From a virus: a stretch of 46,378 bases of DNA. The position numbers and the translations under genes are program-made. Below, one piece after another: positions 4,441-37,101 of the stretch. The DNA is taken from the IMG/VR virus record IMGVR_UViG_3300044807_000119, positions 1 to 46,378 of that record; one strand, 5' to 3'. A model generated the notes under the pieces. That model did not search any database. It saw only the letters and a list, made by a program, of their open reading frames with translations, and was not told the DNA's origin. The stretch's first letter is position 1, and every line of letters begins with the position of its first letter.

Positions 4441-4511
4441 CGCGTCACCTTTGCCGGATGCCCCGACAGCGGGCAGCACAGGGTGAGACACTGCCCGGCT
4501 GTGGCACCAGT

Positions 4512-4521
4512 GCAACGCACC
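4512..4521 (-). promoter_or_regulatory. Late-region motif GGTGCGTTGC, copy 1 (lysis cassette)
   Basis: Exact minus-strand match, 71 nt upstream of the holin-like gene start at 4440. It lies in the 123-base divergent gap between the lysis cassette and the plus-strand cargo genes. One of seven sites in the window sharing orientation and position relative to late genes. Confidence 0.65.
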
Positions 4522-4563
4522 GCAGGTTGTCGGACGGTGGCCGAGCGTGGTAAGGGTCAGGCC

Positions 4564-4716
4564 ATGAAGGAACTTGTAGCCATAGCTGCCTGCCTCGTTG
4601 TCGTCGTTTACGGGGGCCTGTACATCCATATCAGGGGTGACCGCGGGGATTGCGCAGCGAGGAACGCCCAGCGCATCGGAGGCGTGTTGCAGCATTACGG
4701 TTGCGCCGGTAGATGA
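4564..4716 (+). CDS. Small membrane protein, 50 aa
   Basis: ATG at 4564. Residues 1-18 form a hydrophobic segment (MKELVAIAACLVVVVYGG), followed by a short Arg/Cys/Gly-containing tail (DRGDCAARNAQ). It runs opposite to the surrounding late genes and ends 10 bases before the epimerase-like gene, so the two form a separate plus-strand cargo unit. No family recognised; the ribosome-binding site is weak. Confidence 0.4.
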   Translation: MKELVAIAACLVVVVYGGLYIHIRGDRGDCAARNAQRIGGVLQHYGCAGR

Positions 4717-4726
4717 GCGGTTCCGC

Positions 4727-6028
4727 GTGAGCCTATCCCGCCGCGTATTTTTGATCGGCTCGGCCGCTGCGATTGCAACGCCGGCAATGGCGAAATCGCA
4801 TGAGCATTGGCCTGCGATCGCCATCAAAAGAAAATGGGTGAAGGAACTCAACGGGCGCTTTGCCGGCACTTCCGGCATCTTCCACGACACCTCATACAAA
4901 TCGTTCCTGATCGATTACGACCCTGCCGGGAATTACCTGAATTGGGGCGCCTGGCGCGAGTTCAAAAACGACGGTGAGATTGTCATCGCCGACGACGGGC
5001 TTCCGAAAGTGCAGGGCGAGGCCGGGCCGTACTGGAATCCCGTCACGCTTTGTCATTATGCCCTGGCGCACCATGGCAAGATGACGCTCGGGAAATCGGA
5101 ATCCCGCGCGCTGTTTTTCAAGGCCGCTGACAAGCTGATCGAGTTGCAGCAGCCGGGTGGCGGATTTCCCTATCCACCGCTTGCGCACCGCGAGTTCAAA
5201 CTGCCTGCAGGCTGGATCAGCGGCATGGCGCAGGGCAACGCCTTAAGCGTTTTCTATCGCGCATGGCTGCTCGAAAAGGATGCCCGGTATCTCCGCGCGG
5301 GCGCGCTGACCTTCAAAAGCCTGATGACGCCCACGAGCAAAGGAGGCCCGGCCACCACGCTTGCCGATCTTCACCCTTCGCTTTCGAGCTACCCGTTCCT
5401 TGCCGAGTATCCGACGTCGCCGATCGACTACACCTTGAACGGTTTTATGTTCGCGATCCTCGGCCTCTACGATTGGTCGCATGTGTCGCAAAAGGCTTCC
5501 GTGGCCTTCAATCGAAATATCGAAACGCTGGAACGCCTGCTGCCCTACCACGACATCGACGGCTTCTCCACTTACGATCTGTCGCATATCGTCTTGAAGC
5601 TCGCCCCATACGTCGCGGCGCCCTATCTCGGCATCCATGTCTATCTGTTGCGCGCCTTGGCCGGCATCACCGGCAGCGCGACGTTCAACCGCTACGAGCG
5701 GCGCTGGACCGCGAAAATCGACAAGATGAACCGGGAGTTGCGGATCACCGCAATGTCGTCGGACGTCCAATCCCCGCAGCCCGCAGGCACGACGATAACC
5801 TTTCAGATCAAGACCGAAGGCGGCAACGGCGGCGACCTGCTCTATCAGTTCGGCATCAAGCGCGGCACCAAATGGACAATGGCGCAACCGTTCTCGCCGT
5901 CCGACACTTTCGCATGGACACCGCAAGAGCCGGACAATTACATCATCGGATTTTATGCCAGGGAAGCCGGATCGCCGCGCGAGTTCGACAACTTCCGCTA
6001 CCGGGCTTTCAGCATCACGGGCCGATAG
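4727..6028 (+). CDS. Tat-exported D-glucuronyl C5-epimerase-family protein
   Basis: 433 aa, GTG start chosen because it places SLSRRVFLIG, a twin-arginine signal, at the N terminus. The signal continues into a hydrophobic run and an AMA-K cleavage site. The body matches the C-terminal domain of glucuronyl C5-epimerases, enzymes that invert C5 of uronic acids within polysaccharides: WISGMAQGNALSVFYRAW (about 163-180) and FLAEYPTS followed by LNGFMFAILGLYDW (about 224-250). The last 90 residues form a beta-rich, Tyr/Trp-rich module of a surface-protein type (YQFGIK, FAWTP, NYIIGFYARE). The gene faces against the late genes and lies between tail spike and lysis cassette, a classic cargo position. 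It probably acts on host surface polysaccharide; the substrate is unknown. Confidence 0.82.
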   Translation: MSLSRRVFLIGSAAAIATPAMAKSHEHWPAIAIKRKWVKELNGRFAGTSGIFHDTSYKSFLIDYDPAGNYLNWGAWREFKNDGEIVIADDGLPKVQGEAGPYWNPVTLCHYALAHHGKMTLGKSESRALFFKAADKLIELQQPGGGFPYPPLAHREFKLPAGWISGMAQGNALSVFYRAWLLEKDARYLRAGALTFKSLMTPTSKGGPATTLADLHPSLSSYPFLAEYPTSPIDYTLNGFMFAILGLYDWSHVSQKASVAFNRNIETLERLLPYHDIDGFSTYDLSHIVLKLAPYVAAPYLGIHVYLLRALAGITGSATFNRYERRWTAKIDKMNRELRITAMSSDVQSPQPAGTTITFQIKTEGGNGGDLLYQFGIKRGTKWTMAQPFSPSDTFAWTPQEPDNYIIGFYAREAGSPREFDNFRYRAFSITGR

Positions 6029-6031
6029 GGA

Positions 6032-9000
6032 TCAGCGCCACCGCCGCGCTTCGATCTTGCCATAGGCCGAGGTTGTGCTGACCGCAAAGCCGACCTGGGC
6101 TACAAGATAGATCGTGGTGGTGGCGCTGATATTGAATCTTCGGCACGGCGGTACCGAGCTTACGCTTGAGTTTCCTACCCCGCCGAAGATCGCTACGCCG
6201 GCATAATTCTTGTTCGTTTGATCGGTCGCGCTTGTCGGCAACGTCGCCGAAGTCGAATTCAGCCCGGCGTAAGCATAAGTCACCGTCGTTGTGGCTGCGC
6301 CCGTAAGCCCGAAATTTCCACATACATGCCAATCACCGGCTGTCAGCGATTTGCTGGTCACGTTCGCCAGCGTGTTGTTGGTCAGAGCGACCGGCGATGC
6401 GAGTTCAACCACCACGGACTGAAACTCGCCGAGACTGCCGGCGCTGGCATTGCTCGCATCGGTGACGCCAACGATGTCCGGCGTGGTGATCTGCGGCGAT
6501 GTCCCGAACACCGCGACGCCGGTGCCGGTTTCGTTGGTCAGGGCGGCGGATAGGTTCGCGCTGGTAAACGAGCCGAGAGATGTCGCATTGCCGACGCTCG
6601 TGATCGCGCCCGTCGAGTTGGCGTTGGTGGTGACGTTGCCGGCGGTCAGACCCGCCGCCGTTCCGGTCAGGTTGGTAGCCACGCCGGATGCCGGCGTGCC
6701 GAGGGCTGGCGTAATGAAGGTGGCATTCGTCGCCGTGAGACCGGCAATGTTGACGCTAGAGATGGCGGTGCCGCTACCGCGCGTAACTGTCATCCATGTG
6801 GTGGCGGCACTGTTCGCATCATTGACCGCCCGAAACAGCAGGGCCGGTGCGCCTTGGGTAATGTCCCAATTTTTTTGATCGACGCCATTACTCGACATGT
6901 TCCACGCATATGTCGGTGCCGCGCCAGTCACCAAGAAAGCAGCATTTGATCCAACGCCGGTCACATTTCCCGTCTGCTGGCCGGTCCATGAATGCGCGGT
7001 CGAGAACACGTCCGCATTGAGCATCGCGGAGGTGACTTTGGTCGCGCCGATCGCGAGAGCAAGCGACCCGGCTGAGTTTGTTACATCGCCCGTGTGCGCG
7101 GGGAAATTCGCGGCCGGCAGCGTGACGAAATTTCCGAGGGTGCCGGCGTTATTATAGAGCAGAGCGGTATTGGTGCCGCTGGTGACGGTGGTGGTGCCGA
7201 CAGTAATGTTAGAACCCGACGCACAAGTCGGGCATGAAATATTTCCTGTGCCGGCGGTAATTACCAGCGGGGCAGAAGCGGTCACGGCTGGCGTGCCGCT
7301 GCTTGAGCCAGGCGCCCAGGTCGGCGTTCCGCTAGGTGGCGGGTTTACCCGTAGCGATTGCCCGAGGCCGTCGGCAAGGTTGAGCGACGCCCACCCAAAG
7401 CCTGCAATGCCCAAGCCGGTCCCACCATTGACTGAGGGCATGACGGTGCCGTCAAACCTGTATCCGTTACTGGCAAGCTCGAACAGCATTTGGTCGCCGT
7501 TCTCGCGAATGCGGATGCCGCCGTTGCCCCAGTCGACCGATTTGGCGGCGGCCATGAAGTAGCTGCCGAACGGAATTGAGGCGCTGCCTACATCAGGATT
7601 GCTGATGTTCGCCGCGCCCGTGAACGAGCCGCCGGTGCAGGAAAGCGTGCTCCAAATGGGCCAGGCCGTGATCGCGCCTACCGCGGACACGCAAACATCC
7701 GACGCGCCGCTGATATTGGCAGACCCGAGCACCTTGATCGTGCCGCCGGTTATCGCGTTCTTGATACCGTTCACCATGAAGCCACTGGCATCGGCGATGA
7801 ATGGATCATGGAGAATCACATCGGTGCTGGCGCTGGAAAGCAGAATGCCCCAGCGTCCCGCGTTGGCCGTATTGGGCTCGCGGATGATCGGCGTGATATG
7901 GATGTTTTTCGAATTGGTGGCAGTGATCAGGACCGTGTCCTGACTGCTGCTCTTTGAGTCCAGAAAAATATTGACGTCCCTTACGCTGTCGCCCTGGATG
8001 GCAACCGCCTCGACAGCGAACTGCACCTGAATATTTGCGGTGACGTTCGTAAGCGGCGCGAACGTCTGTCCCCCAAGGGAAAGGCCGCGATTGACGTTGT
8101 ACCCGACCCCCGCCAGTTGAATGTTCTGCAAGCCGACGGCAGCGTTAAGCGTGCCGATATTGAACATGTTGCCGCCGATGTTGTCGGCGCTGACGTTGGT
8201 GGCTGTGAAATTGTGCGGGTTGACCACCGAAATCTGGTCTTTGACGCAATCCAGCGCGAGGTTGGAGCACGAAAAGCCGGTGATGACGATATTGCCGGTG
8301 CCGCCATAGAAGCCATGCTGGCCCGGGATGTTGTACGCGCGCGTGCTCGTTATCTGTCGGGTCAGTCCGGTGGTCGATACGCCGTAATTTCCGAAACTCA
8401 ATCCCTGCGCCACGCCGGTGACCGTCGCACCGTTGATGTAGAGATTGTCGATCGCGCCGGCGGTGGTGTGATCGGCCAGACTAATGCCGTACTGATGATT
8501 GGCTTGCGACGTGATCGGCGTCGAATAGAGGTTGGTGCCTTCGATAAAGACGTCGTTGATGAAAATCCCGTTGCCGCCAAAAATCGCGATACCGTTCGTC
8601 CCGTTATTTTTGGTATGGACGCGATTGATGTACAGGTTGGTGCACGCGTCGCATTGGATTGCCCGGTCGTTGTGGCCGCTAATCCCGCCGTCGCCGCCCC
8701 ACTCGCCTGCGGGGCAAGCCGCTGTCACCGCCTGGCCGATGTTGCCGCAGAAGGTGCCCTCGCCGTACAGAATGCCGCCGCTGATAATGACGTTCGCTAC
8801 GGACGATCCGTAGAAAATCCTTGCTCCCCGCGTGTCCTGATGCAGAAACGCGCCCGCGTCCATCTCTATCCTCAAATCGCTGTGCAGGGTCAGCTGGGAC
8901 GTGAGCTTGTAGTTGCCGTAGGCGATCCGGATCTGGTTGTTAGCGGTGATGCAGGCCTGCAAAGCTGCGGTGGCGTCGGTCGCGCCTGTGTTGTCCGCAC

Positions 9001-9718
9001 TGCAGACAACGATGCTGCCGAGGCACTGTTTCAGGTTGCCGACCGTGCCGTCGGCGCAGATCGTCGCGCTGTCGACCAGCGGCAGCCGAACATTGCCGGT
9101 GCCGCTGCTCGACCGGCAGACCGGCGTCTTGCCGTCAACGTCGAAGCCCAGGAAGCCCCCGGAACAAATCGGCGGCAGCGGCAGCAGGCCGACCCCCTGC
9201 ACGCCCGGCGCGAATACCAGCGAGCGGCCGGTGAAGTCGTTGGTCTTGTCGTAGAGCTCGCGCAGCGTCGCGGTGGTGTCGGTCAGGCGCAGGTTGAGAT
9301 CGCGCGCCGGTGCACCGCGGCTTTCGGAGAACTGCGAGGTCTGCCGCGGACGGCGGGCGCCGACGATCTGCACCGTCCCGGTCTGCGGCGAGGTGAATGT
9401 CAAGACGGCATTGGTGATCGGCCGGGCGAGATTTGAAAATGGGCCCGACGGGCTGGTTAGCGTCCAGCCGTGGGACGGATCGGTGGAATTGACGCGCGTC
9501 CCGTTAACGAAAACCTCGATCCAGCTGGTGAAATCGGTCCCGTCGCCGTACAGCGCGAAATTGACCGCGCAGGCGCAGGTCGAGGTTGTGAGGCTGTAGG
9601 ACTGCCGGCGCTCGGTATCCGGCAGCGCCGGGACCGGTGCGGGGACTTGCGCAAAAGCGGGCGCGAGGCCGGCGGCGAGCACAAGGGCGAGGATGGCGCG
9701 GCGGATGAGATTTCCCAT
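6032..9718 (-). CDS. Tail spike/fibre with T7-like N-terminal domain and beta-helix
   Basis: 1228 aa, the receptor-binding virion protein. Residues 1-23 look like a Sec signal peptide (basic start, RRAILALVLAAGLAPAFA), which is unusual for a tail fibre. Residues 35-160 resemble the T7 fibre N-terminal attachment domain (SWIEVFVNGTRVN, later GTVQIVGARRPR). From about 239 (GATDATAALQACI) to about 670 is a right-handed beta-helix of pectate-lyase type, common in depolymerising spikes. A Thr/Asn/Gly-rich repeat shaft follows (ALGTPASGVATNLTGTAAGL). The last 125 residues end AYGKIEARRWR, a widespread phage tail C-terminal module. The start codon lies in a strong hairpin, and a late motif lies 31 nt upstream. 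Confidence 0.88.
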   Translation of the reverse strand: MGNLIRRAILALVLAAGLAPAFAQVPAPVPALPDTERRQSYSLTTSTCACAVNFALYGDGTDFTSWIEVFVNGTRVNSTDPSHGWTLTSPSGPFSNLARPITNAVLTFTSPQTGTVQIVGARRPRQTSQFSESRGAPARDLNLRLTDTTATLRELYDKTNDFTGRSLVFAPGVQGVGLLPLPPICSGGFLGFDVDGKTPVCRSSSGTGNVRLPLVDSATICADGTVGNLKQCLGSIVVCSADNTGATDATAALQACITANNQIRIAYGNYKLTSQLTLHSDLRIEMDAGAFLHQDTRGARIFYGSSVANVIISGGILYGEGTFCGNIGQAVTAACPAGEWGGDGGISGHNDRAIQCDACTNLYINRVHTKNNGTNGIAIFGGNGIFINDVFIEGTNLYSTPITSQANHQYGISLADHTTAGAIDNLYINGATVTGVAQGLSFGNYGVSTTGLTRQITSTRAYNIPGQHGFYGGTGNIVITGFSCSNLALDCVKDQISVVNPHNFTATNVSADNIGGNMFNIGTLNAAVGLQNIQLAGVGYNVNRGLSLGGQTFAPLTNVTANIQVQFAVEAVAIQGDSVRDVNIFLDSKSSSQDTVLITATNSKNIHITPIIREPNTANAGRWGILLSSASTDVILHDPFIADASGFMVNGIKNAITGGTIKVLGSANISGASDVCVSAVGAITAWPIWSTLSCTGGSFTGAANISNPDVGSASIPFGSYFMAAAKSVDWGNGGIRIRENGDQMLFELASNGYRFDGTVMPSVNGGTGLGIAGFGWASLNLADGLGQSLRVNPPPSGTPTWAPGSSSGTPAVTASAPLVITAGTGNISCPTCASGSNITVGTTTVTSGTNTALLYNNAGTLGNFVTLPAANFPAHTGDVTNSAGSLALAIGATKVTSAMLNADVFSTAHSWTGQQTGNVTGVGSNAAFLVTGAAPTYAWNMSSNGVDQKNWDITQGAPALLFRAVNDANSAATTWMTVTRGSGTAISSVNIAGLTATNATFITPALGTPASGVATNLTGTAAGLTAGNVTTNANSTGAITSVGNATSLGSFTSANLSAALTNETGTGVAVFGTSPQITTPDIVGVTDASNASAGSLGEFQSVVVELASPVALTNNTLANVTSKSLTAGDWHVCGNFGLTGAATTTVTYAYAGLNSTSATLPTSATDQTNKNYAGVAIFGGVGNSSVSSVPPCRRFNISATTTIYLVAQVGFAVSTTSAYGKIEARRWR

Positions 9719-9740
9719 GGCGGGAAGGTTCCGCCATGGG
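9714..9740. promoter_or_regulatory. Perfect 10-bp inverted repeat containing the tail-spike start codon
   Basis: Arms CCCATGGCGG (9714-9723) and CCGCCATGGG (9731-9740) enclose a 7-base loop. The minus-strand ATG of the tail-spike gene (9718-9716) is inside one arm. No clear Shine-Dalgarno sequence is present; the loop reads AACCTTC on the mRNA strand. The hairpin could hold back translation of the spike, or act as a weak processing or termination element between the 1354-aa protein and the spike. Confidence 0.55.
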
Positions 9741-9749
9741 ACTCGGCTC

Positions 9750-9759
9750 GCAACGCACC
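9750..9759 (-). promoter_or_regulatory. Late-region motif GGTGCGTTGC, copy 2 (tail spike)
   Basis: Exact minus-strand match, 31 nt upstream of the spike ATG and 10 nt before the start-codon hairpin, in the 46-base gap after the internal virion protein gene. The following bases GAGCCGAG agree with copies 4 and 7. Confidence 0.7.
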
Positions 9760-9764
9760 ACGGA

Positions 9765-12700
9765 TCAATGCCGCTCTGGCTTGACCTTCATCTCGATGCC
9801 GAAGGCGTTGTTTCCGGCGGCTTCCACCTGATTGAACAGCCCGCGCAGGTAAAACACGTTCTGGCCCGCCACCAGCCGCCGCAGAGCCTTGGAATCGGCC
9901 TCGCTCCATTCCGACGGCTTCGACGCCCCGGATGCCACGCTGAGGATGCCCTGAATTTTGCCTGCCGTCGGGCCGAGCAGCTGATCCATCGCCGACCGCG
10001 AGGCAAAGCGGGACAGCGGCTTGTCGGCTCCGATCATGCGGTAAATGTCGAGCCCGCCCCGGGTCGCCTTGGACGCCATGGCGTTCGCCTCCTCGAACCA
10101 GCCGAGCAGGTTACCCTTCGATATGGCTTCCTTGATCCAGTCTTGCGGCTTGTCGCTGGCCGGGGCGCCGCCGGTGAGCGAGCCGATCTTGTAGGACAGC
10201 ATGCCGAGGCCCATGGAGAAGATCAGGCCCTGCAAAACCTGCGCATCCCGGCGCTGCAGGTTCGCAATCAGGATGCGCTCGTTCGCCGCAGCCGTGAAGC
10301 TCTTAAACTGCCCCATGGCGTTGACGACCTGCTGGGACATCCACAGCGGCTTTTCCTGCCCCGGCGTCACCACGGAAATATCGGCATCGCGCGCCACCGC
10401 GCCCTCGAACACGCGGCGCGCCTCCTTGTCGGTCCAGTCGGCGGTGTTCGGCAGGTGCACGCCGTCGCGGACTTCGCCGCCCTTCTCGAACGCCTTGGCG
10501 ATGCGCTCGGCCATGTGCGGCTCGATGCCGGATTCGCCGAGCGTCCGCAGCATCCGCGCCGAGGCCGTGCCGCCCGCCGCCGCCTTGGCCGCGCGCAGGA
10601 TCTCCGAACCGGCCACCAGCGAGGCGTTGATCTTGGCAAAGTCGGTCCACGGCCCAAGCAGGTTGACCATCTGGAATTTGCCAGTCGCCCATTGCATCGT
10701 GCGCTCAAGCCGGTTCTGCGGATGATAGCTGTCCAGCGTGTCAGTCAGCGCATGGTGACGTTGGGCCAGCACTGATTCCACGGCGATGCCCATGGCGCGA
10801 TACTGCCGCCCGGCCTCTTTCCAGATGTCGTCCTGCCGGGTCAGCATCTTGAAAAACGGCACCCATGCATCGTTGAAGGTGTTGACCAGGCCGTGCCGCA
10901 TCACGGTTCCCGCCATGTCCGGCAGCGACGACAGCGCGGCCGAGCCGAGCGAGGTCAGCACGTTGTAGTTTTTGATGACGGCGGTGGTGCGGGCGATGTT
11001 GCGCAGCGGGCCTTCCGGGGCGATGCCATAGACGCCGCGGATGCGGTCGCGGATGTCGGCCAGATCGCTGATGACGCCCTGCCGTTCGGTTTCCAGCGCG
11101 GTGCGGGCCTTGTCCGACTTCGCCGACGCCGACAGCGCGGCATATTCATCGTTGATCTTGCGGAACGCCTCGGTCATCCGGACGTCGCCAAACTTCTCGG
11201 TCAGCAGCACGTCGGGCACGATGGTGCGCAGATGGGTGGCCACGATGTGGTCGATGTTGTTTTCGAGGAAGTCGCGGATCGTGGCGTCGGGAATATTGAA
11301 CTCGCGCGCCGCAAGCGGGCCGCGGGGCGGTTCGCCGCCGCCCTTGAAGCCGATTTCGGGACCGCCGTTGCCGATGTCATAGGGCAGCCGGCCGTCGGGC
11401 GAGCCGATGATGCGGTCGGTGATCTGGTCGGCACGGCCCTGCAACTCAGCACGCTCAAGGTCGCGGGGCGATTTAAGGATATCGGCCACCGCGCTGTCGA
11501 CCGCCTTGTCGGCCGACGTAAGTCTTTCGTCCTTGCCTTTGTAGGTTCCTGCCGCCTTCTGTGCCTCGCGCGCCTTCACCGCCTCGGCCCGGGCTTTCAG
11601 AGCTCTTTTGGCCTCAACCGTCGTTTTGCCATCCCACGCCCCGATTTCCTTTTCGATCTTGTCGCGCATCAGATCATGATTCTGGATTTCCTCGGCGAGA
11701 TGGCCTTCCAGTTTCTCGATTTCGGACAGCTTCGCGGACGCGCGGTCGGCCAGCAGGTTTCCGCGCTCGCGGGCCAACGTCTCGAATAGCGCGCCGCCCC
11801 GGGCCTTTTCGATCCCCTTTCCTGGGACGTCGACGCGAATTCCCCCGTCGTTACGATATTGAGATTCCCGAAGTTGTTCGGAACGACGGTTCGCGGCCTT
11901 GTTGAAGCGCGTGGTTTCTTCCTGCCGCGCTGCAATGACATCGGTATCTTTCGACAACCTGTCGATTTGGCCTTCCAGCTTCTCAATGGTCGCACGATGC
12001 GATTCCAGCGCGCCATGGAACAGCCCGATGCGCTCCTGTGCCTGCGCCTTGGCAGCTTGGTCGCCGGCGAGCCAGTCGGTCACCCGGTTGACAAACTCCG
12101 GACGGCGCGCCGCGATGGCCTGCTTGTTGTAAAGGCGCTGCATATAGCTGTCGGCGGTTTTGACATCGACGCCCTCGGGCAGCAGTCCGGCATCGATGGC
12201 GCGTTTTTTCCACGGCTCGAACACGTTGTTGCGGACGAACTGCGCGGCCATCTGGACCTGCGGGATTTCGTGCACGTCGCCATTGCGGCCGGCATCGGTC
12301 ACCGCCTGCGCGAATTCCTGATAGCTCATCTTGCCCGGTTCGCCGCGGCCTGTGATGCCATCGAACAGTGCCTGCGCGCGTGGGGCCATCTTCTGCTCGC
12401 CGTAGCGGTATTCGGAGAACAGCCGCGACATCTCGTCGGTGTGCGCGACCTGCAGCTGGTTGATGAACAGCCGGGCTTCGCGGTCGACTGCCGGGCCCGC
12501 CGTCGTCACCTTGCCCTCAAGGTTCTCCTTCATCAGCAGCGCCGTCTCGCCGAGGTCCGCGCCGGTGCGCCGGGCCGTGACACTCTCGGCGCCAAACACC
12601 CGCTGCATCGGCGAGGTCTTTTCCACAACGGTGCGGACGCCGGGGATTTCGGACAGGCCGAACGGCACGAGTTCGATCTTGCGGGTGTCGGATGCGGCGG

Positions 12701-17855: not shown

Positions 17856-17868
17856 TATGCCGTTCCCT

Positions 17869-20172: not shown

Positions 20173-20175
20173 GGG

Positions 20176-20796
20176 TCACTGTCCGGTCGAGCTGCCGAAA
20201 CGGCCGAAGCGGCGCGCCGCCGTCATGCGGGATTTGAACATCGCACGCCGCGGCTTCTGCATGTCGTGGCGCGATTTCGCATCCTCGAGCAGCGCCTTGC
20301 CGGAATTCCACATCCGCTCGGCCTGGCCGACATCCTCGTGCAGGCCGCGGTAAATGCCGGACATGACGAACGCCTGCAGCGCGCTGACAAAGGTCGGCGT
20401 GCCGAATGTCGGGTCAGCATTGGTGGTGAAGATGCCCTTGATCTTGACCGTGCCGCCGCCCGCATCGACCGCCAGCTGGTTGTTCAGCAGATCCCAGGTG
20501 CACGGCAGGTCATTGAGCAGCACCAGGATCAGGTGGACCAGATCGACCGGCAGGTCATAGGCGCTGTCGTATTGCGTATCGGCCGGGGCGGTTGGTGAGG
20601 GCTGCAGCGTCCTGATCTCGGTCAGTTGCCGCCAGCCGTGGGATTCCAGCATGTAGGCCAGTGCCCGCTCATAGGCGGGCGAGGCTACATTCCATTCATC
20701 CGAGCCATCGTCCTCGATGTTGACAAGCGTATCGCCGCACTGTCCCAGCGCGGAGTTGATGATTTCGAGCTTTCCGAGGGGCCATTGAACTGCCAT
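20176..20796 (-). CDS. Tail tubular protein A / adaptor (T7 gp11-like)
   Basis: 206 aa. Pattern of podovirus adaptor proteins: EIINSALGQCGDTLVN near the start, then ASPAYERALAYMLESHGW, a DLPVDLVHLI segment, and a helical end (DVGQAERMWNSGKALLEDAK). The protein forms the ring between portal and nozzle. First gene of a block preceded, 30 nt upstream, by late motif copy 3. Confidence 0.82.
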   Translation of the reverse strand: MAVQWPLGKLEIINSALGQCGDTLVNIEDDGSDEWNVASPAYERALAYMLESHGWRQLTEIRTLQPSPTAPADTQYDSAYDLPVDLVHLILVLLNDLPCTWDLLNNQLAVDAGGGTVKIKGIFTTNADPTFGTPTFVSALQAFVMSGIYRGLHEDVGQAERMWNSGKALLEDAKSRHDMQKPRRAMFKSRMTAARRFGRFGSSTGQ

Positions 20797-20826
20797 GCCG
20801 CACGCTCTGCCGCGCGAGGGTCAATC

Positions 20827-20836
20827 GCAACGCACC
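20827..20836 (-). promoter_or_regulatory. Late-region motif GGTGCGTTGC, copy 3 (tail block)
   Basis: Exact minus-strand match in the 74-base gap between the 182-aa charged protein gene and tail tubular protein A, 30 nt upstream of the latter's ATG. Confidence 0.7.
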
Positions 20837-20870
20837 GCTGAGTGGAGGCTGTGGCCTTCTCGCGAAGTTT

Positions 20871-21419: not shown

Positions 21420-21432
21420 GGTCAGTCCTCGG

Positions 21433-21960: not shown

Positions 21961-21972
21961 TGGGAATTCTCC

Positions 21973-22947
21973 TTAGGCCACGATGGTGGCGTTGGTGACG
22001 GAATCGAGCCGGGCAAGCGCCTTGGGATGCTCGCGGGCGAAGCCGAAGTCCCACTTGACGTGCGTGGAATCCATGGGCTGTCCGACGACCGGACCTTCCG
22101 GAATGACCGTGAGCGGCGTCTGCTCGATGCAGTAGAAGCCGCCGGGCCGGAACGAGACGCAATAGATCGAGGAGGTGACGGCAGAGCCGCCGCCGCTTGC
22201 CACTTCGGTGAAGGGCAGCAGGTCCGGCGAGTCGTCCGGCTCGTAGCCGAACAGGATCGGCAGGCCCTTGAATTTGATGATGCGCCGGCCGAAATCGTCC
22301 TCGGCATAGCCGACGGTCTGGTTGACCAGGGTGTTGTTGCGCGCCGCGGTGTCCCATTGCGGCATCAGGCTGCGCGGCATGATCCAGTGCGTCGGCTTGT
22401 TCACGCGCCAGTAGAGCGCGTCCATATTGGCGAGCGACAGCGCGGCGCCGCCGGATGCGGCGGAATTGTGAATGAGGTTGCCGGTGTTTGCCGTGGCGTC
22501 GAGGCATCGTACCTGAATGCCGTTCGGCGTGCGGACGTTCGAGGAGTGGTCCGACTTGATCAGCCCCTGTGAGAAGAACTGGCCGAGCGCGATGCTCACC
22601 AACTGTTCCTGCTTGTACTTCCCTTCCGGTCCGAGCCGATCGATCATGGCGCGGTCGGCGAAGATGTACTGATCCAGGAAGAAGGTGTCTTCCTCGCGCA
22701 GGTTGAAAGTGCCGGTGCCCTGACCGCCGGCCTCGTTGAGACCGCGCTGCGCGACGGGCGGCAGCGACGCGATGTCCATAAAGGCGCGCTTGCCGCGCTG
22801 GGCGGCCAAGACCGGACACGCCATCATCACGTCGGATTCCCGGACCATGTTCTCGACGAAGGTGCGGGTCGGGTCGCTCTCCGGGATCGACTTGTAATAT
22901 TCGACGAAGTTGGTCGGGGTCGTGATCGTGGTGGTGAGCGAGACCAT
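21973..22947 (-). CDS. Major capsid protein
   Basis: 324 aa, in the right size and place (between scaffold and cement genes) for the HK97-fold capsid subunit of BPP-1-like podoviruses. A mixed alpha/beta sequence runs from a short N-terminal arm (TPTNFVEYYKSIPESDP) through FFLDQYIFADRAMIDRLGPE to a beta-rich second half (IYCVSFRPGGFYCIEQTPL). The end, FGFAREHPKALARLDSVTNA, is typical of the class. No protease gene is present, consistent with a separate scaffold. Confidence 0.85.
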   Translation of the reverse strand: MVSLTTTITTPTNFVEYYKSIPESDPTRTFVENMVRESDVMMACPVLAAQRGKRAFMDIASLPPVAQRGLNEAGGQGTGTFNLREEDTFFLDQYIFADRAMIDRLGPEGKYKQEQLVSIALGQFFSQGLIKSDHSSNVRTPNGIQVRCLDATANTGNLIHNSAASGGAALSLANMDALYWRVNKPTHWIMPRSLMPQWDTAARNNTLVNQTVGYAEDDFGRRIIKFKGLPILFGYEPDDSPDLLPFTEVASGGGSAVTSSIYCVSFRPGGFYCIEQTPLTVIPEGPVVGQPMDSTHVKWDFGFAREHPKALARLDSVTNATIVA

Positions 22948-22962
22948 TTAGATATCCTCCGT

Positions 22963-23799
22963 CTAAGCCGTTTTCCGGGCGCGCAACTGTTCCTGCGCAT
23001 GCCGTTGCTGTGCGAAACTCATGGTGGCGAAGCCGGGGATTTCGTTGTTGTCCGGCGGAACGCGGTGCTGCTGCGAGAACGAGGCAGCGCCTTGCGAGGT
23101 GATGCGCGTGATCAAACGCTCCCATGCTTCGACCTGACGCGCCGTCACCAGACCGGCGGCGAGAGCCGCGGCGTCGCGCTTGTCCGGCGTCGGGTCAGCG
23201 CCCTTCAAGAAATTCAGAACCGCGTCGACACGCGCGCCGGCATTGGCGCCGAGCTTCGCCTGTTCGGCGGTGCGGGCGGCCTCGATCTGCGCTTCCTCGC
23301 CAACCTTGGCGGCGGCATAGAGGCCGAGCATTTTGGAGAAGCCGGCCTGCGACATCCCCTGCGCGTGCGCTTCGGCGCGAGCCTGCGCCAGCAGCGGGTC
23401 GGCCATATCGAACTTGAATTCGACGCCGGCGGGCGGCTTGAAGTCAGGAGGCAACTCAATCTTGTAATCGTCGGGCTTCTGCGGGCGCGATAGCGCCTTC
23501 ACATCTTCCGCGGCCTTGAAGGTCTTGAGCTCGTCGCGCTCTTTCAGGTCCTTGGCGAGCGCGACCGGATCGACCTTGAGGGCTTTCGCCTCGGCGTCCC
23601 AATAGCTGTCGGGAATGCCGTCGGGCCGCTCAGCCGTCGTCGCGGTCGTAGCCGGGGACGCGGGTTTCGGGTCCGATGCGGCGACCGCCGGGCTGGCGGG
23701 CGGGTCCGACGCGGCGGGGTTCTGCGGCGGGGACGACAATGGGCTGGTCACCGCTGCCGGTGTTGCTGCCGCTGGTGCTGCTGCTTGTTCGCCCGCCAC
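22963..23799 (-). CDS. Scaffolding protein
   Basis: 278 aa. A 60-residue Ala/Pro/Ser/Thr low-complexity start is followed by a helical charged body: SYWDAEAKALKVDPVALAKD, then a LPPDFKPPAGVEFKFDMADP hinge, then long helices. The short C-terminal basic tail (RHAQEQLRARKTA) would bind the capsid interior. Scaffold proteins direct shell assembly and leave before DNA packaging. The first 170 bases overlap the upstream 126-aa gene in another frame; late motif copy 4 lies 69 nt upstream inside that gene. Confidence 0.82.
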   Translation of the reverse strand: MAGEQAAAPAAATPAAVTSPLSSPPQNPAASDPPASPAVAASDPKPASPATTATTAERPDGIPDSYWDAEAKALKVDPVALAKDLKERDELKTFKAAEDVKALSRPQKPDDYKIELPPDFKPPAGVEFKFDMADPLLAQARAEAHAQGMSQAGFSKMLGLYAAAKVGEEAQIEAARTAEQAKLGANAGARVDAVLNFLKGADPTPDKRDAAALAAGLVTARQVEAWERLITRITSQGAASFSQQHRVPPDNNEIPGFATMSFAQQRHAQEQLRARKTA

Positions 23800-24010
23800 T
23801 TTCCGCGATTCCCTTGGCCATGAGACCGATTAGCTTCGCGGCGAACATCCTTTCCCCGTTGTCGGCTTGCAACGCACCAGCGTCGGCCGTGCCGAGCACC
23901 AGCATCATCCTGCGCTGCAGAAAAACGTAGAGATCGGCGCCATCAGGGGTGCGGGCGATGCGGTCGAGCGCTGCAAGGCACTCTGCGGTGGTGGGGTGGA
24001 TTTCGGTCAT
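23630..24010 (-). CDS. Hypothetical protein between portal and scaffold
   Basis: 126 aa, ATG overlapping the portal stop (ATGA). The first 70 residues look folded and helical (AECLAALDRIARTPDGADLY, then FLQRRMMLVLG and GERMFAAKLIGLMAKGIAE). The last 55, which overlap the scaffold gene, are Ser/Gly/Pro/Arg-rich and are probably a read-on with no stop until 23630. Small proteins in this place occur in BPP-1-like phages; this one is not identified. Confidence 0.6.
   Translation of the reverse strand: MTEIHPTTAECLAALDRIARTPDGADLYVFLQRRMMLVLGTADAGALQADNGERMFAAKLIGLMAKGIAESGGRTSSSTSGSNTGSGDQPIVVPAAEPRRVGPARQPGGRRIGPETRVPGYDRDDG
23869..23878 (-). promoter_or_regulatory. Late-region motif GGTGCGTTGC, copy 4 (scaffold/capsid)
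   Basis: Exact minus-strand match inside the 126-aa gene, 69 nt upstream of the scaffold ATG. The downstream bases AAGCCGAC resemble copies 2 and 7. Its location within coding sequence argues for selection on the DNA motif rather than chance intergenic sequence. Confidence 0.65.
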
Positions 24011-25614
24011 GCGCCTGGTCCTGGTGCTGCATTGCCTGCATCGGAGACGTGCCGCGCACCGGCGAGCTGCTCCATCTGGTCGACCGCCTTCTGGACTTGA
24101 TCAAGCGGGCGCAGCTTGATCAGGGAGACTTCGGTTTCTTCAAGCCAAGCCTCCATCGTTGCGCGGCCATCGACATTGATCTTGAATTCCTCGGGGAACA
24201 TGCCGCCCAAGGTTCCCGCAGTGCGGGTCGCCTCGGCGACGGCCTGCAATTTGGCGGCGGCCTGCGCAGGGTTGCGCGGCAGCATCGCCACCGCGCGACC
24301 GTCGATAGTGAGCGGCACAATCGTCTTTGAGGCTTCCAGCAGATACTTGAACCGCAGGAATATCTGCGAAAGATCGCGCCAGAACGACAGGCCGGGCGTG
24401 CCGATGCGGCGCTGCATCCGCGCGCGCTCGTCAAGCCATTGCGTGGCGGTCGGCGGTGTGTCGCCGCTCTGCTCGGGCAGGTCGACGTAGAACAGCTTTT
24501 GCAGCTTCTTCAGTTTCTTCTCATAGGCGTAGTTTTCCGGATTGGCGGGCGGCGCCTCGTAGATGTTCTTGATCGCCTTCTCATCGCCCGGCCGGATCGG
24601 ATACGCCATGCCGGATTCGAAGCCCTGCTCGACCGCGGCAAATCCATCGTTCGGATAGGTGACCGGTGGCCGCAGCGATAGCTCGGCGTTCTCTTGCAGC
24701 ATCAGTTCGGCTTCATCGATCTGGCGCAGCGAGGGCAAGCCCTGGATCAGCGGGCCGAGAGCGAACGGCGAATCCGGGGACGGATTGAAGCGGCCGATCC
24801 ACAGCGGGCAGCAGCCCTCGCCCTTGATCTCGACGTGGTGGACAAGATTGTTGCCGTTCTTGCCGACCATGACGACGTGCTCCCAAACCTCGTCGTCATT
24901 GCGGTCCCATTTACGCCAGAAACCCCATACGACTTGCGTGCGATCCTTGGCCTTTTCGGTTAGCTCCTTTTTGAGTTCTGGATTGATCTTGTTCCAGATT
25001 TCCTCGCCGACCAGCTCGCGGACATGGACGTTCCGCGTCGAGCGCACGGCGAAACGGTCATCGATGTCGCCATAGGGTCCGAGGTTGATTTCCAGTTCGC
25101 GCAAGGGGATTGCGGAAACGACGATGGGGCGGGAGGGATGCGGGCGGGCGATCCATAGCCCCACGGTGCCGATGCCAAGGTCCGGATAGAAGCCCTTCGC
25201 AACTTCCGGGTAGAGGTTCGAAGCGCGCATGGCGTTGAAAATTGCCAAATCGTTTTTCTTGGCCTGTTCCTTGACCTGATCCCAAACGCCATCCGGCAAA
25301 TCCATGCCGCGGCCGCTGACACACCACGGCTTGTCCGGCGACATGAAGGCCTGCACCACTTCGGTGGTGAAGTCGCCGCAAAGAATGAACGCTTCATCGG
25401 TGTTCAGTTCGGCGGCGTCCTGCATGCGCGTGACCGTCGTCGACGAAGCCGAGTCCATAAGGCGGCTTCGGTGTGGCGAGGCAAAGAAATAGCACTCGCG
25501 GAAGTCCATCTCCCACGGGCCCTTTATCGCCTTCGCGGCGGCGCGGCGGTCGCGCGCCTCGATCTCCAGCGTGGCGTCGGGAGATGGTGGTGCTTTCGGT
25601 GGGGCCTTTGCCAT
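24007..25614 (-). CDS. Portal (head-to-tail connector) protein, T7 gp8-like
   Basis: 535 aa, the dodecameric ring through which DNA enters and leaves the head. Typical connector features: an N-terminal helical part with WEMDFRECYFFASPHRSRLM, then DEAFILCGDFTTEVVQAFMS, a beta wing (GFYPDLGIGTVGLWIARPHP), the segment PLIQGLPSLRQIDEAELMLQ, and the ARMQRRIGTPGLSFWRDLSQ stem region. It lies between large terminase and scaffold genes as in other short-tailed phages. The C terminus is Ala/Gly/Pro-rich. Confidence 0.85.
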   Translation of the reverse strand: MAKAPPKAPPSPDATLEIEARDRRAAAKAIKGPWEMDFRECYFFASPHRSRLMDSASSTTVTRMQDAAELNTDEAFILCGDFTTEVVQAFMSPDKPWCVSGRGMDLPDGVWDQVKEQAKKNDLAIFNAMRASNLYPEVAKGFYPDLGIGTVGLWIARPHPSRPIVVSAIPLRELEINLGPYGDIDDRFAVRSTRNVHVRELVGEEIWNKINPELKKELTEKAKDRTQVVWGFWRKWDRNDDEVWEHVVMVGKNGNNLVHHVEIKGEGCCPLWIGRFNPSPDSPFALGPLIQGLPSLRQIDEAELMLQENAELSLRPPVTYPNDGFAAVEQGFESGMAYPIRPGDEKAIKNIYEAPPANPENYAYEKKLKKLQKLFYVDLPEQSGDTPPTATQWLDERARMQRRIGTPGLSFWRDLSQIFLRFKYLLEASKTIVPLTIDGRAVAMLPRNPAQAAAKLQAVAEATRTAGTLGGMFPEEFKINVDGRATMEAWLEETEVSLIKLRPLDQVQKAVDQMEQLAGARHVSDAGNAAPGPGA

Positions 25615-25616
25615 GG

Positions 25617-25820
25617 TTAGGCCGCGATCGGCGGGGTGGTGGGCAGCGCGGTCATGCCGGAATTGGCCAGCGCCAGCTTGGTGCCGTAGCGGGTCATCAG
25701 GTTGGCGGTGTCAAGCTGCGCCTGGGATTGCAGACTTGCGATCAGCGACTTCTGCGCCTGCGCCTGTTCGGCCATCAGGTTCGGGTCGGTCGCTAGTTCT
25801 GGCTTTGCCGGCTGGCCCAT
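25617..25820 (-). CDS. Small Gln/Ala-rich protein upstream of portal
   Basis: 67 aa, ending two bases before the portal ATG. The sequence is helical and Gln/Ala/Leu-rich (MAEQAQAQKSLIASLQSQAQ, then LMTRYGTKLALANSGM) with no charge cluster. It starts inside the preceding 174-aa gene in another frame; late motif copy 5 lies 60 nt upstream. It could be a head-closure or assembly cofactor. Not identified. Confidence 0.6.
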   Translation of the reverse strand: MGQPAKPELATDPNLMAEQAQAQKSLIASLQSQAQLDTANLMTRYGTKLALANSGMTALPTTPPIAA

Positions 25821-26235
25821 CGTCGCTTACAATTCCGCCCACCTTGGGTGACGAGAGGTGGCGGAACAAGGCGTCGGGGCGCAACGCACCCGAGCGGACG
25901 CCGATCAGGTGCGCGACCGCCGTGGTGCAGAACATGCCGAGCCGCATCAGCGGCAGGCCGTCGTGCCGCGTCTCGACCGTGACGACGCAATTTCCGGTGA
26001 CGATCGCAGCAACGGTGGCCTGCGCGGCCACGCCGTCGACCATGACGCTGAGCCGGGTGCGGCGGAAACCGACGTCGTAAAACCACCACTGCCCGAGCTC
26101 GGGAATCCACGCCAGCGCCGAGACGTGCTTGAAGTGCCCCATGGCGATCAGGTCGAAGAAACGGTTCTCGGCCTTGCGGTGGAACACGACGGTCCAGCGC
26201 CGGGCCTCGATGCCGTGGGCGGGGACTTCATGCAT
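25711..26235 (-). CDS. Hypothetical protein in the packaging/head region
   Basis: 174 aa. The first 120 residues look like a folded, aromatic-rich domain: RWTVVFHRKAENRFFDLIAM, then HFKHVSALAWIPELGQWWFY, then LMRLGMFCTTAVAHLIGV. Similar small proteins accompany large terminase and portal genes in alphaproteobacterial podoviruses, with unknown function. The last 50 residues are Gly/Asp/Arg-rich and overlap the next gene, so the true end may be functionally unimportant. The start overlaps the stop of the 82-aa gene. Confidence 0.6.
   Translation of the reverse strand: MHEVPAHGIEARRWTVVFHRKAENRFFDLIAMGHFKHVSALAWIPELGQWWFYDVGFRRTRLSVMVDGVAAQATVAAIVTGNCVVTVETRHDGLPLMRLGMFCTTAVAHLIGVRSGALRPDALFRHLSSPKVGGIVSDDGPAGKARTSDRPEPDGRTGAGAEVADRKSAIPGAA
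25881..25890 (-). promoter_or_regulatory. Late-region motif GGTGCGTTGC, copy 5 (portal block)
   Basis: Exact minus-strand match inside the 174-aa gene, 60 nt upstream of the 67-aa gene that precedes portal. The downstream bases GCCCCGAC match copy 6 (GCCCCGGT) closely. Confidence 0.65.
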
Positions 26236-26483
26236 CAGGCTTTGGCTGTAATCGAAAAGCTGTCGGCGAAAACGCCGCCCTCGGCAGACCGAAACGTTTT
26301 TCCTTTCAGGAATTCACGCTTCATCGTGACCAACAAATCGCGGGCACCGGCCGGAACGTCCGAGCCCTCGATGTCGAGCACCACGTTTCCTGAATTGTCA
26401 AATCCAATGCTCACGAGCCGCAGATCGAGGCCCGGAAGCATCGCCTCCAGAACCGTTTCGGGCAAGCACAGTAATCTAGCCAT
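26235..26483 (-). CDS. Hypothetical protein after large terminase
   Basis: 82 aa. Short N-terminal helix (ARLLCLPETVLEAMLPG), then a beta-rich region (LVSIGFDNSGNVVLDIEGSD) and a basic segment (LLVTMKREFLKGKTFRSAEG). Sixteen bases after the large terminase stop, with a GGAGAA ribosome-binding site. No family recognised. Confidence 0.6.
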   Translation of the reverse strand: MARLLCLPETVLEAMLPGLDLRLVSIGFDNSGNVVLDIEGSDVPAGARDLLVTMKREFLKGKTFRSAEGGVFADSFSITAKA

Positions 26484-26498
26484 CGATCTTCTCCTTGG

Positions 26499-28073
26499 TT
26501 ATGCCGTCACCCGGCGCATCGTCTTGCGGCGGTTCCATGCTTGCACGGGCTTGAGGTCGGCGTGGCGGCCCATCGTCACCGCCTTACCCTCGCCGCCGCC
26601 GAGCAGCATGTTTTCACCGGCTTCGCAGACATGGCTGTATTGGTTCTTTTCCGGCTCGTCGGCGTAGCGCTCGCCCGACACGCGCAGGCGCCGCATGAAG
26701 TAACCGCCCTCCATGCCGGTGATGAAAGTCACGCAGCACGGGTCGACCAGAAGCGCGCTCGGCCGCTGGCCGCCGGATGATCGGCGCATCAGCACGGCGT
26801 TCACCGCCTCATGCCGGATCGAATACATGTTTTGCGGGTTCGGCGCCGGCAGCACATTCATGCTGTTCTCGGCGAACACCTCGAATGGCGTCTTGTCGGT
26901 GGCCTCGCCGCGGTGCTGGCCCGCCGGATCGCCCCAGAAGATGAAACTGAAACCCGGAAATTCCCGCACCAAATACGCCTTGAGCAGCGGCGCGAACTCC
27001 ACCGCCGACATGTCGCGGCCGATGAATTCGCGGTGCACGAACCAGTCGGCCCGCAGGTTCTGACCGATCAGCGCCGCGGGCTGCCGGCCGAAGTCGAGGC
27101 CGATTGTGATCGCCACGCCGGCGATCACTTCCAGCGGACGCTCCGAAACGTGGACATCCCTGCGAAACTGCGGATAGACCGGCTGGCCGTCGGTGACCAC
27201 AGCCGATCGGTTCATAATGTTGGCGTCGATCCATGATTTGGTCTTGCCGGCGATCTTCTCCTCATAGAACAGCGGCGGCAGGTATTTCAGGTTTTCGGCA
27301 GCCGGGTTCGGCTTGTAGCCGATCAGCCGCTTCGCCACCTTGCCGTCGCCGGTGTTGTATTCCTCGAAGTCCTCGAGCAGGCCGGGCGGCTGCATGAAGA
27401 AGCCCCAGTTGGCCGGCTTCTTCAGCGCGTTGCGTTTCTCCTCGGTCATCCAGTCCGGCGGCGGCACGTCGCCGCGCATGATCGGCAGCCAGTGATCCGC
27501 CGGCGGCGCGTTGGTGTCCGCGATCAGCCCGCCCCAGGCGCAGCCGCCATCCTTGACGGCCGGAAAGCGCGGCGGCGACACGCGCCCGACCGCCTCGCTG
27601 AAGACCTCGTATTGCGCGAACTGCACCTCGTTGAACCAGATCAGCGAGGTCTCGAGCGACATGAAGAACGATTTGGCGTCGCGGATATCCTCCATCGCCA
27701 CGAAGGTGACATCGAGTTCGAGCGGCCCGACCCGGACTTCATGCCTATAGGGCCGGGTCTCGTAGAAGATCCCGAACTCGCCCGGCTGCGTCCCCGGTCG
27801 AAACCAGTCCTTCCAGGTCGGGATCGTGGTCTCCTCCAGCTTCGCGTAGGTCTCGCGGAAGATGTGCACCCGGAACCGCTGCCGGCCGTCCCGCTGCGGC
27901 GCCTGCGCCAGCGCCCGCTGGAAGATGTGCATGCAGCACGCCGACGAGGTCCCCGACCCCTGCGGCCCCTGAATGATCTTCACCCGGCTGGTCTGGTCCC
28001 GCATGAACGCCCGCAGCACCGCGCCGTCGGGGCGGAAGATCGGGAAGCCGGTTTGCGGGTCGTATTCGATCAC
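26499..28073 (-). CDS. Terminase large subunit
   Basis: 524 aa, the packaging motor and nuclease. Walker A is GPQGSGTSS at about residues 36-44. SLIWFNEVQF, in the Walker B/coupling region, is near 145. The nuclease domain shows GLDFGRQPAALIGQ (first acidic residue, about 312) and FIFWGDPAGQHR (second acidic residue, about 366). Gene order (small terminase, HNH, large terminase, portal) is typical. The ATG overlaps the HNH gene stop. The C-terminal tail is basic. Confidence 0.92.
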   Translation of the reverse strand: MIEYDPQTGFPIFRPDGAVLRAFMRDQTSRVKIIQGPQGSGTSSACCMHIFQRALAQAPQRDGRQRFRVHIFRETYAKLEETTIPTWKDWFRPGTQPGEFGIFYETRPYRHEVRVGPLELDVTFVAMEDIRDAKSFFMSLETSLIWFNEVQFAQYEVFSEAVGRVSPPRFPAVKDGGCAWGGLIADTNAPPADHWLPIMRGDVPPPDWMTEEKRNALKKPANWGFFMQPPGLLEDFEEYNTGDGKVAKRLIGYKPNPAAENLKYLPPLFYEEKIAGKTKSWIDANIMNRSAVVTDGQPVYPQFRRDVHVSERPLEVIAGVAITIGLDFGRQPAALIGQNLRADWFVHREFIGRDMSAVEFAPLLKAYLVREFPGFSFIFWGDPAGQHRGEATDKTPFEVFAENSMNVLPAPNPQNMYSIRHEAVNAVLMRRSSGGQRPSALLVDPCCVTFITGMEGGYFMRRLRVSGERYADEPEKNQYSHVCEAGENMLLGGGEGKAVTMGRHADLKPVQAWNRRKTMRRVTA

Positions 28074-28705
28074 AGGAGTCTGCCGGTCGATTGGGCAAAA
28101 TCAATCGGGTCGGCGGCACCCTTCGAAAGATTGCATCCTGCGCAGGTCAACTGCAGATTGGAGCGCCTGTCGGGCCCATTACGCTTGAGCGGCATCACAT
28201 GGTCAACGTGCTGATCTCCGCCGAGTTTTTCGCGGCAATACGCGCACCGGCCCCGCTGCAGCTTCGTCAACTCCCGGACCAGCGTTATCCGCTTCGCCGT
28301 TTTCCGGGCTCTTTTGCTCGCGCGGACCTTCTCTCGGTTTTTTTCCTTCCATGCCTTTTGCAGGACAGCGGACTTTCCCGGGTTGGCTTCGCGCCACTTC
28401 CTCGATTGCTCAAGCGCGCGGTCCCGGTTTGCTCGATACCGCGCGCGGGCCGCTTCCCGTTTTGCCTCTGCCCTCGCGGCGCTTGCGGCGGCGCGGATTT
28501 CAGCGGTAGCGAGAAGCCTTGCCTCGCGGGCGGCGAGCCGTTTGGCCTTTAACTTCTCTCGCGCTCGACGATCCTTGGCGAGCGCCTTTTCGGGATTGGC
28601 TAACCGCCACGCCCTGACTGAGGCGCGGTGCTGCTCGCGGTGCGCCGCACGCCACCGCGCGCTCTGGCTACATGCCCTTTTCAGATCGGCGGTTTCTTTG
28701 TCCAT
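28070..28705 (-). CDS. HNH endonuclease beside the terminase
   Basis: 211 aa. The first 140 residues are an extended Arg/Ala/Lys/Glu-rich helix with repeated W-R-x-AN motifs (SVRAWRLANPEKALAKDRRA, then SRKWREANPGKSAVLQK). The C-terminal 70 residues hold the HNH domain: GRCAYCREKL, VDHVMPLKRNG, NLQLTCAGCNLSKGA. HNH proteins next to terminase genes are known to assist DNA packaging or cutting in several phages. Late motif copy 6 lies 31 nt upstream. Confidence 0.88.
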   Translation of the reverse strand: MDKETADLKRACSQSARWRAAHREQHRASVRAWRLANPEKALAKDRRAREKLKAKRLAAREARLLATAEIRAAASAARAEAKREAARARYRANRDRALEQSRKWREANPGKSAVLQKAWKEKNREKVRASKRARKTAKRITLVRELTKLQRGRCAYCREKLGGDQHVDHVMPLKRNGPDRRSNLQLTCAGCNLSKGAADPIDFAQSTGRLL

Positions 28706-28736
28706 CCCAACGATAAGCGCCGAGATCGACCGGGGC

Positions 28737-28746
28737 GCAACGCACT
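28737..28746 (-). promoter_or_regulatory. Late-region motif AGTGCGTTGC, copy 6 (HNH/terminase block)
   Basis: Nine of ten bases match the GGTGCGTTGC consensus. It lies 31 nt upstream of the HNH gene ATG, the same spacing as copies 2 and 3 (31 and 30 nt). An AT-rich tract (28767-28793) sits just upstream. Confidence 0.65.
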
Positions 28747-28997
28747 CACCAGTGCGCAGCTTTTGAGGTAGAAAAATATGGGAGAAAAAATGGTAGACGG
28801 CGAGGTGCTAATCCCAGCGCTGGATTTCGGTCGGACGTTTTGCCCCCGGCCTCGCCGTGAGCGGGTCCTGCGATTGCGAGGCCGCCCCCACCTGATCGAT
28901 GCGCGCTCTTGGGGCAGGAACGCTGTGTTCCCTGCCGTAGGGAACGCCGTGCATTGATATCGTTGGACAATCTGCGCTCCATCCCGATATTCCCACG
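28747..28997. other. Gap between small terminase and HNH gene, coding status unclear
   Basis: About 250 bases without a convincing gene. A minus-strand frame from the GTG at 28996 to 28808 (62 codons) begins two bases after the small-terminase stop and could be a short protein. A second frame (28982-28746) and a third without a start are equally open, and none shows a recognisable motif or ribosome-binding site. An AT-rich stretch lies at 28767-28793. Confidence 0.4.
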
Positions 28998-29462
28998 TTA
29001 GTTCGTCACGTCGATGACTGACGCGGATCGCGCGTCATCCGTCAGGTCGATGACGTATCCCGCCTTTATGTCAATGTTCACAGATACTTGCGCGTCGGCC
29101 TTGGGTTTGATCCCCGCCAGGCCGAGCACGAAGGCTGAGGCGTCGTTCCTCACATGCTCGCTCGCAGAATCCAGCAGTTCCATCTTCACCGCGGCCGCTC
29201 TTCCGGCGCCGATCGCGAGCACACGACACGCCTTCTGCCTCAGATACTCGGCAATGTGAGGTTTCGACAATTCGCGGGATAGGTGCTCCCGGCTGAGGTT
29301 TGCCTTTGTTGCCGCGTCCGTGACCGTCTTGACGTCACCGTGGACGAGAGCATCACAGGCCGCTCGAATTCGGCGCGATATCCGCCGGGGTTTGTCGAGT
29401 TGAAGCGCTTCCGGTGCTGGCAGGGTGTCGGCCATCACAACTGCTGTACCTGTGGATGGCAT
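28998..29462 (-). CDS. Terminase small subunit-like DNA-binding protein
   Basis: 154 aa from the ATG at 29462; an ATG at 29435 would give 145 aa. The middle carries a helix-turn-helix of the small-terminase type (DAATKANLSREHLSRELSKP, then HIAEYLRQKACRVLA), which recognises the packaging start. It is followed by an Ala-rich helical oligomerisation part and a beta-like tail (VSVNIDIKAGYVIDL). First gene of the late leftward series; late motif copy 7 lies 116 nt upstream. Confidence 0.75.
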   Translation of the reverse strand: MPSTGTAVVMADTLPAPEALQLDKPRRISRRIRAACDALVHGDVKTVTDAATKANLSREHLSRELSKPHIAEYLRQKACRVLAIGAGRAAAVKMELLDSASEHVRNDASAFVLGLAGIKPKADAQVSVNIDIKAGYVIDLTDDARSASVIDVTN

Positions 29463-29578
29463 GTCGTCGGCCCTTGGCCTTCCTCATGGTCCTCGGTCGC
29501 AAGCTCCCTGCGGAAGGAATTGGGCGAGCGCGCGTGGTGGTGGACGGGCGATGGGATGGGGCGGATTGGGCTTGGCTT

Positions 29579-29588
29579 GCAACGCACC
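29579..29588 (-). promoter_or_regulatory. Late-region motif GGTGCGTTGC, copy 7 (start of late region)
   Basis: Exact minus-strand match, 116 nt upstream of the small-terminase ATG and about 100 bases from the divergent sigma70-like promoter at 29671. It is followed by AAGCCAAG, as in copies 2 and 4. Confidence 0.7.
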
Positions 29589-37058: not shown

Positions 37059-37098
37059 CACCCCGCAAAGGGTTGTGCAACTCTACCCGTGGCCGGGT
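37037..37098. promoter_or_regulatory. Three repressor operators ACCC-N6-GGGT between cro and cI
   Basis: Sites at 37037-37050 (ACCCGCTAAAGGGT), 37060-37073 (ACCCCGCAAAGGGT) and 37085-37098 (ACCCGTGGCCGGGT). Their starts are 23 and 25 bases apart. The first two cover the leftward promoter; the third ends three bases before the first cI start codon and could allow repressor self-control. The same 14-mer pattern recurs twice at 38164-38201. Confidence 0.75.
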
Positions 37099-37101
37099 AA
37101 C

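Follow-up and report, generated by a model that had tools for sequence, protein, structure and literature searches.

An oriented two-part sequence motif marks probable late promoters, many predicted to be leaderless, in a group of temperate short-tailed phages

Late genes in a group of temperate phages from soil are preceded by a short word in a single orientation, which is followed at a regular distance by a second, degenerate element. These sites are probably (probability about 0.75) late promoters for the host RNA polymerase, many of them leaderless, that work with a phage activator, and the best candidate for this activator is the product of a gene here called f13. As judged from sequence comparison, the indication that the motif sites are promoters is strong, and we infer that transcription starts at or just upstream of the ATG.

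The window phage

The window is the whole stretch of DNA that was analysed, an IMG/VR contig with a length of 46,378 bases. Its T7-like virion genes, together with genes for RecE- and RecT-like proteins, an integrase, and an S24 repressor, identify the window phage as a temperate podovirus. The gene of the CI-like lysogeny repressor lies at 37075-37752, and a tRNA-Met gene at 35936-36013 (-) sits between the early operons. This tRNA is the sole match to known RNA families within the window, and the motif sites have none. A gene for a 413-aa protein (4787-6028, +) is antisense to the late genes and adjoins the spike gene; its product matches PF06662, the D-glucuronyl C5-epimerase C-terminal domain, with an E-value of 1.7e-47.

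The word in the window

The word GGTGCGTTGC has six exact copies and one copy with one mismatch in the window. Every copy is on the minus (late) strand, within the late half (Table 1). The preliminary description had given these seven coordinates and their strand correctly, and two of the sites lie within open frames, as it had stated. An exact copy on the plus strand of the window was not found, and the only other match with one mismatch is at 32554 (+). Other GC-rich 10-mers of the window are just as lopsided, such as CGCCGCCGCG (7:0) and GATCGACGCC (7:1). Dinucleotide shuffles give an expectation of 0.38 exact copies on both strands, so that the earlier figure of 0.09 is too low, and six or more copies occur in 0 of 100 shuffles. 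Since the word was selected post hoc, after the sequence had been read, and other GC-rich 10-mers are as one-sided, the window alone is not decisive, and the case for the motif is settled by the comparison of related phages. The distances to the next ATG given earlier hold for the genes that were named, but the gene start is not always the next ATG. The distance of 69 nt ends at a GTG, and at the 23869 site two ATGs are closer, 20 and 47 nt beyond the 10-mer.

Table 1. Motif sites and the candidate regulator gene in the window (all on the minus strand; promoters and leaderless starts are predictions)
Feature	Position	Word (-35-like)	-10-like element	Start codon or other detail
Small terminase, site upstream	29579..29588	GGTGCGTTGC	CATCCC, 29553-29558 (weak, score 0.4)	long-leader site
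HNH endonuclease gene, predicted promoter	28710..28746	AGTGCGTTGC, 28737-28746 (one mismatch)	TATCGT, 28710-28715	ATG at 28705, 32 nt after core; predicted leaderless
Predicted promoter within 3' part of pre-portal gene	25855..25890	GGTGCGTTGC, 25881-25890	CACCTC, 25855-25860	
Scaffold-like gene, predicted promoter upstream	23844..23878	GGTGCGTTGC, 23869-23878	GATGTT, 23844-23849	
Tail tubular protein A, predicted promoter	20802..20836	GGTGCGTTGC, 20827-20836	GAGCGT, 20802-20807	ATG at 20796, 31 nt after core; predicted leaderless
Spike/fibre gene, predicted promoter	9725..9759	GGTGCGTTGC, 9750-9759	AACCTT, 9725-9730	ATG at 9718, 32 nt after core; predicted leaderless
Small membrane-protein (holin-like) cassette, predicted promoter	4488..4521	GGTGCGTTGC, 4512-4521	CAGTGT, 4488-4493	ATG at 4440; leader predicted
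f13	31281-31796			171 aa; predicted XRE-type helix-turn-helix N-terminal domain and basic helical C-terminal part

Conservation in related phages

Relatives were collected by their large terminase. They comprise 38 loci of viral origin and two in cellular genomes, including a Bradyrhizobium prophage. A close relative (L040, SCSV01000188.1) is found in a metagenome-assembled genome labelled Salinibacterium (Actinomycetota), where mis-binning is likely. The 40 terminase loci together have 66 copies of the 10-mer in the late orientation and a single copy in the opposite one. The 9.7-Mb genome of Bradyrhizobium sp. Arg816 has 30 copies, of which six fall within the prophage region and share one strand.

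The conserved part of the word is the 8-nt core GTGCGTTG, and the flanking bases differ by lineage. In a de novo count, this core has the largest forward-minus-reverse difference of all 8-mers in two divergent groups, with forward to reverse ratios of 66:4 in the group of the window and 31:4 in a second group, whose terminase identity is 62-68%. Together, 14 related phage records contain 104 late-strand and 8 reverse copies of the invariant core, and six of the 8 reverse copies are at most 70 bp from a forward copy. Upstream of tail tubular protein A, the motif and its reverse complement form inverted repeats with 8-20 bp between them in G005 (25547), G006 (2313), and G007 (16350; late-orientation coordinates).

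The site in the pre-portal gene retains the core in all 14 genomes. Where the frame is shared, GCG TTG is invariant, although adjacent codons vary even for conserved residues. The core is read in another frame in G007 and G008, and in G005 the gene has already ended, yet the word is retained. This suggests a constraint on the core at the DNA level, and at the two motif sites inside coding sequence the protein constraint contributes as well.

Geometry of the sites

Non-redundant sites number 155, and in 68 of them the core is followed by an ATG at 31-34 nt, compared with about 6 expected (about 1.6 per position). Among 670 common 8-mers, each taken at its own best offset, the core has the highest fraction of ATGs (45%), and the next unrelated word reaches 26%. 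The second element, C-A-Y-S-N-T, is located 19-21 nt after the core, which corresponds to positions -12 to -7 of that ATG. Expectation maximisation (EM) places C-A-Y-S-N-T-S at this distance in 50 of the 68 sites. For three widths, its scores are 72.4, 78.1, and 89.5, against 34.6-51.8, 36.6-52.3, and 44.6-58.4 in shuffles, a comparison that favours the real score somewhat, with 30 restarts for the real data and 6 per shuffle. The spacer from TTGCNN to CAYSNT is 16-18 bp in 57 of 67 sites, which matches the spacing of the sigma70 type, and the ATG is 5-7 nt after the -10-like element in 55 of 67. The position of this element tracks the distance to the ATG (rho 0.46, p 9e-5), and it is also found at sites that have no ATG at 31-34 nt. 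In comparison with the TTGACA and TATAAT consensus, TTGC and A-11/T-7 are kept and the remainder is degenerate, as would suit a promoter that depends on an activator; the -10-like element is weak overall and poor at some sites of the window.

A Shine-Dalgarno core precedes only 1-2 of the 68 motif ATGs, in contrast to 52% of other genes. The gene calls come from a simple script favouring Shine-Dalgarno starts, and for this reason a control was run on genes with unambiguous starts, of which 21 of 38 have the core. Non-coding sites with an ATG about 50 nt away mostly have a Shine-Dalgarno sequence.

The preliminary description proposed a late-gene control element, and the orientation, the two-part spacing, and the relatives support it. 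The second, -10-like half was not part of it, nor were the constant distance of 31-34 nt to the ATG, the absence of Shine-Dalgarno sequences, or a shared regulator gene.

The candidate regulator f13

The f13 gene is near the end of an early operon. When each protein of the window was used for iterated profile searches, f13 was the sole non-structural family found in 14 of 14 genomes. Its structural model has a pLDDT of 89, and the N-terminal part resembles the HipB and P22 c2 folds, with target-normalised TM values of 0.73-0.86 to HipB chains at Foldseek E-values of only 0.03-0.1. The member in Microcystis phage Mwe-JY08 has an HTH_3 match with an E-value of 3.5e-4, which is below the curated cut-off. 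An XRE helix-turn-helix fold is predicted for f13 on the basis of this model. The family has no match in PHROGs, its matches in Pfam are only off-topic and each come from a single member, and tblastn with three divergent queries finds none in 50,697 phage records.

Five records were held out from the derivation of the motif, namely G014-G017, found via f13 in viral contigs, and Mwe-JY08, found via TerL, and in all five f13 co-occurs with the motif. They have 37 forward sites, 15 of which have an ATG at 31-34 nt, and 1 has a Shine-Dalgarno core. Mwe-JY08 (L088, PP395640.1) carries f13 by profile search (E 4e-13) as well as the motif, and two of its annotated genes begin 32 nt after the core. 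Since both are present, the stated host of this phage may deserve a check. By tblastn, G014 and G016 have no detectable similarity to the structural proteins of the window; several of their proteins share PHROG families with it, and the capsid is in a different family. Two terminase relatives in which the f13 profile gives no hit also lack an excess of the word on the late strand.

The link between f13 and the motif is an association among related phages. With moderate confidence, f13 is the likely activator of the late genes and a candidate binder of GTGCGTTG. XRE proteins often bind palindromes as dimers, and the core is not palindromic, which counts against f13 as the binder. It could instead be a repressor or an antiterminator.

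Proposed mechanism

In the proposed mechanism, GTGCGTTGC ends in a sigma70-like TTGC, which would be the conserved -35 region read by the host RNA polymerase. It would be followed, after a spacer of 16-18 bp, by the degenerate -10 element CAYSNT, in which A-11 and T-7 are conserved, and transcription would begin 5-7 nt beyond this element. For many late genes the predicted start falls on the A of the ATG, and a leaderless mRNA is therefore predicted. For other late genes, the ATG would be at least 15-20 nt downstream of the start, usually with a Shine-Dalgarno sequence. A phage-encoded activator would bind over or beside the -35 region and recruit the polymerase. The poor quality of both hexamers, together with the invariant GTGCG, makes such an activator probable, and f13 is the best candidate for this recruiting role.

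Alternative explanations

Among the options raised by the preliminary description, the best fit is a promoter served by a phage-specific activator; the sigma and T7-type options gained no support, and the repressor option is disfavoured. If the sites were operators or stoperators, they would be bound by the CI-like repressor, or by f13 in a repressing role, and the late genes would be kept off. XRE-type proteins are often repressors, the sites overlap the -35 region, and inverted motif pairs occur at some places. However, relatives of the lysogeny repressor are found in only 2 of 14 genomes and the motif in all of them, which disfavours this protein as the binder. The sites are also paired with a -10-like element, and the promoters seem too weak to need silencing; repression is unlikely. 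An unrecognised phage polymerase or sigma factor would account for the many short, strict, and oriented late sites, as in late transcription of the T7 or T4 type, but the spacing is that of the sigma70 holoenzyme. The preliminary description saw no T7-type polymerase, and a search with PF00940, which lacked a positive control, likewise gives no match in 13 records, nor in the control genomes. Sigma70_r2 is found in 0 of 17 phage records and Sigma70_r4_2 in only 2 of 17, so these records show no phage late sigma common to all carriers, and the reading as a whole is quite improbable. Small helix-turn-helix proteins resembling Sigma70_r4_2 are encoded at G008:41923-42027 (L098) and G002:39828-39932 (L099).

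An antitermination or pausing element of the ops/RfaH kind, through which a processivity factor would be brought to the elongating polymerase, is very improbable. The motif is oriented, lies directly upstream of genes, often just after terminator-like T-runs, and presumably resembles an elemental pause sequence. It occurs, however, at many gene starts and not once per operon, its spacing to the -10-like element and the ATG is fixed, and the Shine-Dalgarno sequence is missing only where the ATG is the predicted start point. The fixed ATG distance and the missing Shine-Dalgarno sequence would equally suit a translation signal, with GUGCGUUGC of the mRNA base-pairing to a 16S rRNA loop in place of a Shine-Dalgarno sequence; we take the word to be complementary to a 16S rRNA stretch. 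Against this, the motif and the -10-like element are also present at sites that have no ATG at that distance, the bases adjoining the core vary by lineage, and the word is nearly absent from genes on the other strand, which makes such a signal extremely improbable. Both the elongation element and the translation signal are disfavoured because neither would explain both the -10-like block and the Shine-Dalgarno contrast.

Comparison with known systems

Lambda PRM: In lambda, CI contacts sigma domain 4 at PRM, and the cI mRNA is leaderless. The promoters predicted here share with PRM a protein of predicted XRE fold, a site adjoining the -35 region, a poor -10 element, and a predicted start at the ATG. 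In contrast, there are many promoters for structural genes, and the site is an asymmetric 8-mer and not a palindromic operator. Compared with the activation of PRM by CI, f13 is only a candidate activator.

Gene transfer agents: GafA or GafY/GafZ control the gene transfer agents of alphaproteobacteria, and GafY aids the sigma70 polymerase at a degenerate -35 region (PMC11150451, PMC9632790). GafY is similar to DnaA domain IV and acts at about -123 to -113 with IHF, and its motif is hard to define (PMC11150451, PMC9632790). Of the regulated systems in these hosts, GafY/GafZ comes nearest, and the likeness is a dedicated activator of late-type genes in alphaproteobacteria, with f13 as the candidate here. 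Unlike GafY, f13 is predicted to be of the XRE type, and its candidate site overlaps the -35 region. The published description of GafY sets the GafA/GafYZ system apart from the phage motif in both fold and site position.

Other phages: T4 late and T7 class III promoters also have a short, strict motif upstream of many late genes in one orientation, but a phage polymerase or late sigma serving the sites was not found here. The start-associated sequences and stoperators of mycobacteriophages are likewise asymmetric repeats near gene starts. The motif differs from them in that it does not adjoin the start codon and is linked to a -10-like element and to a predicted start.

Significance

The literature searched has no description of regulation in this group of soil temperate phages, and a literature search for the word gave nothing phage-related among the matches listed. 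The odds are about even that a wide range of temperate short-tailed phages has an undescribed class of late activators, of predicted XRE type, which direct the host polymerase to a rigid -35 word and yield leaderless structural mRNAs. The motif and f13 could help to detect such prophages, to determine their orientation, and to revise the start positions of their genes. If the promoter reading is true, these soil temperate phages would have a late-gene switch that can be tested, the absence of ribosome-binding sites from some of their structural genes would be explained, and leaderless translation in alphaproteobacteria could be studied in a compact system.
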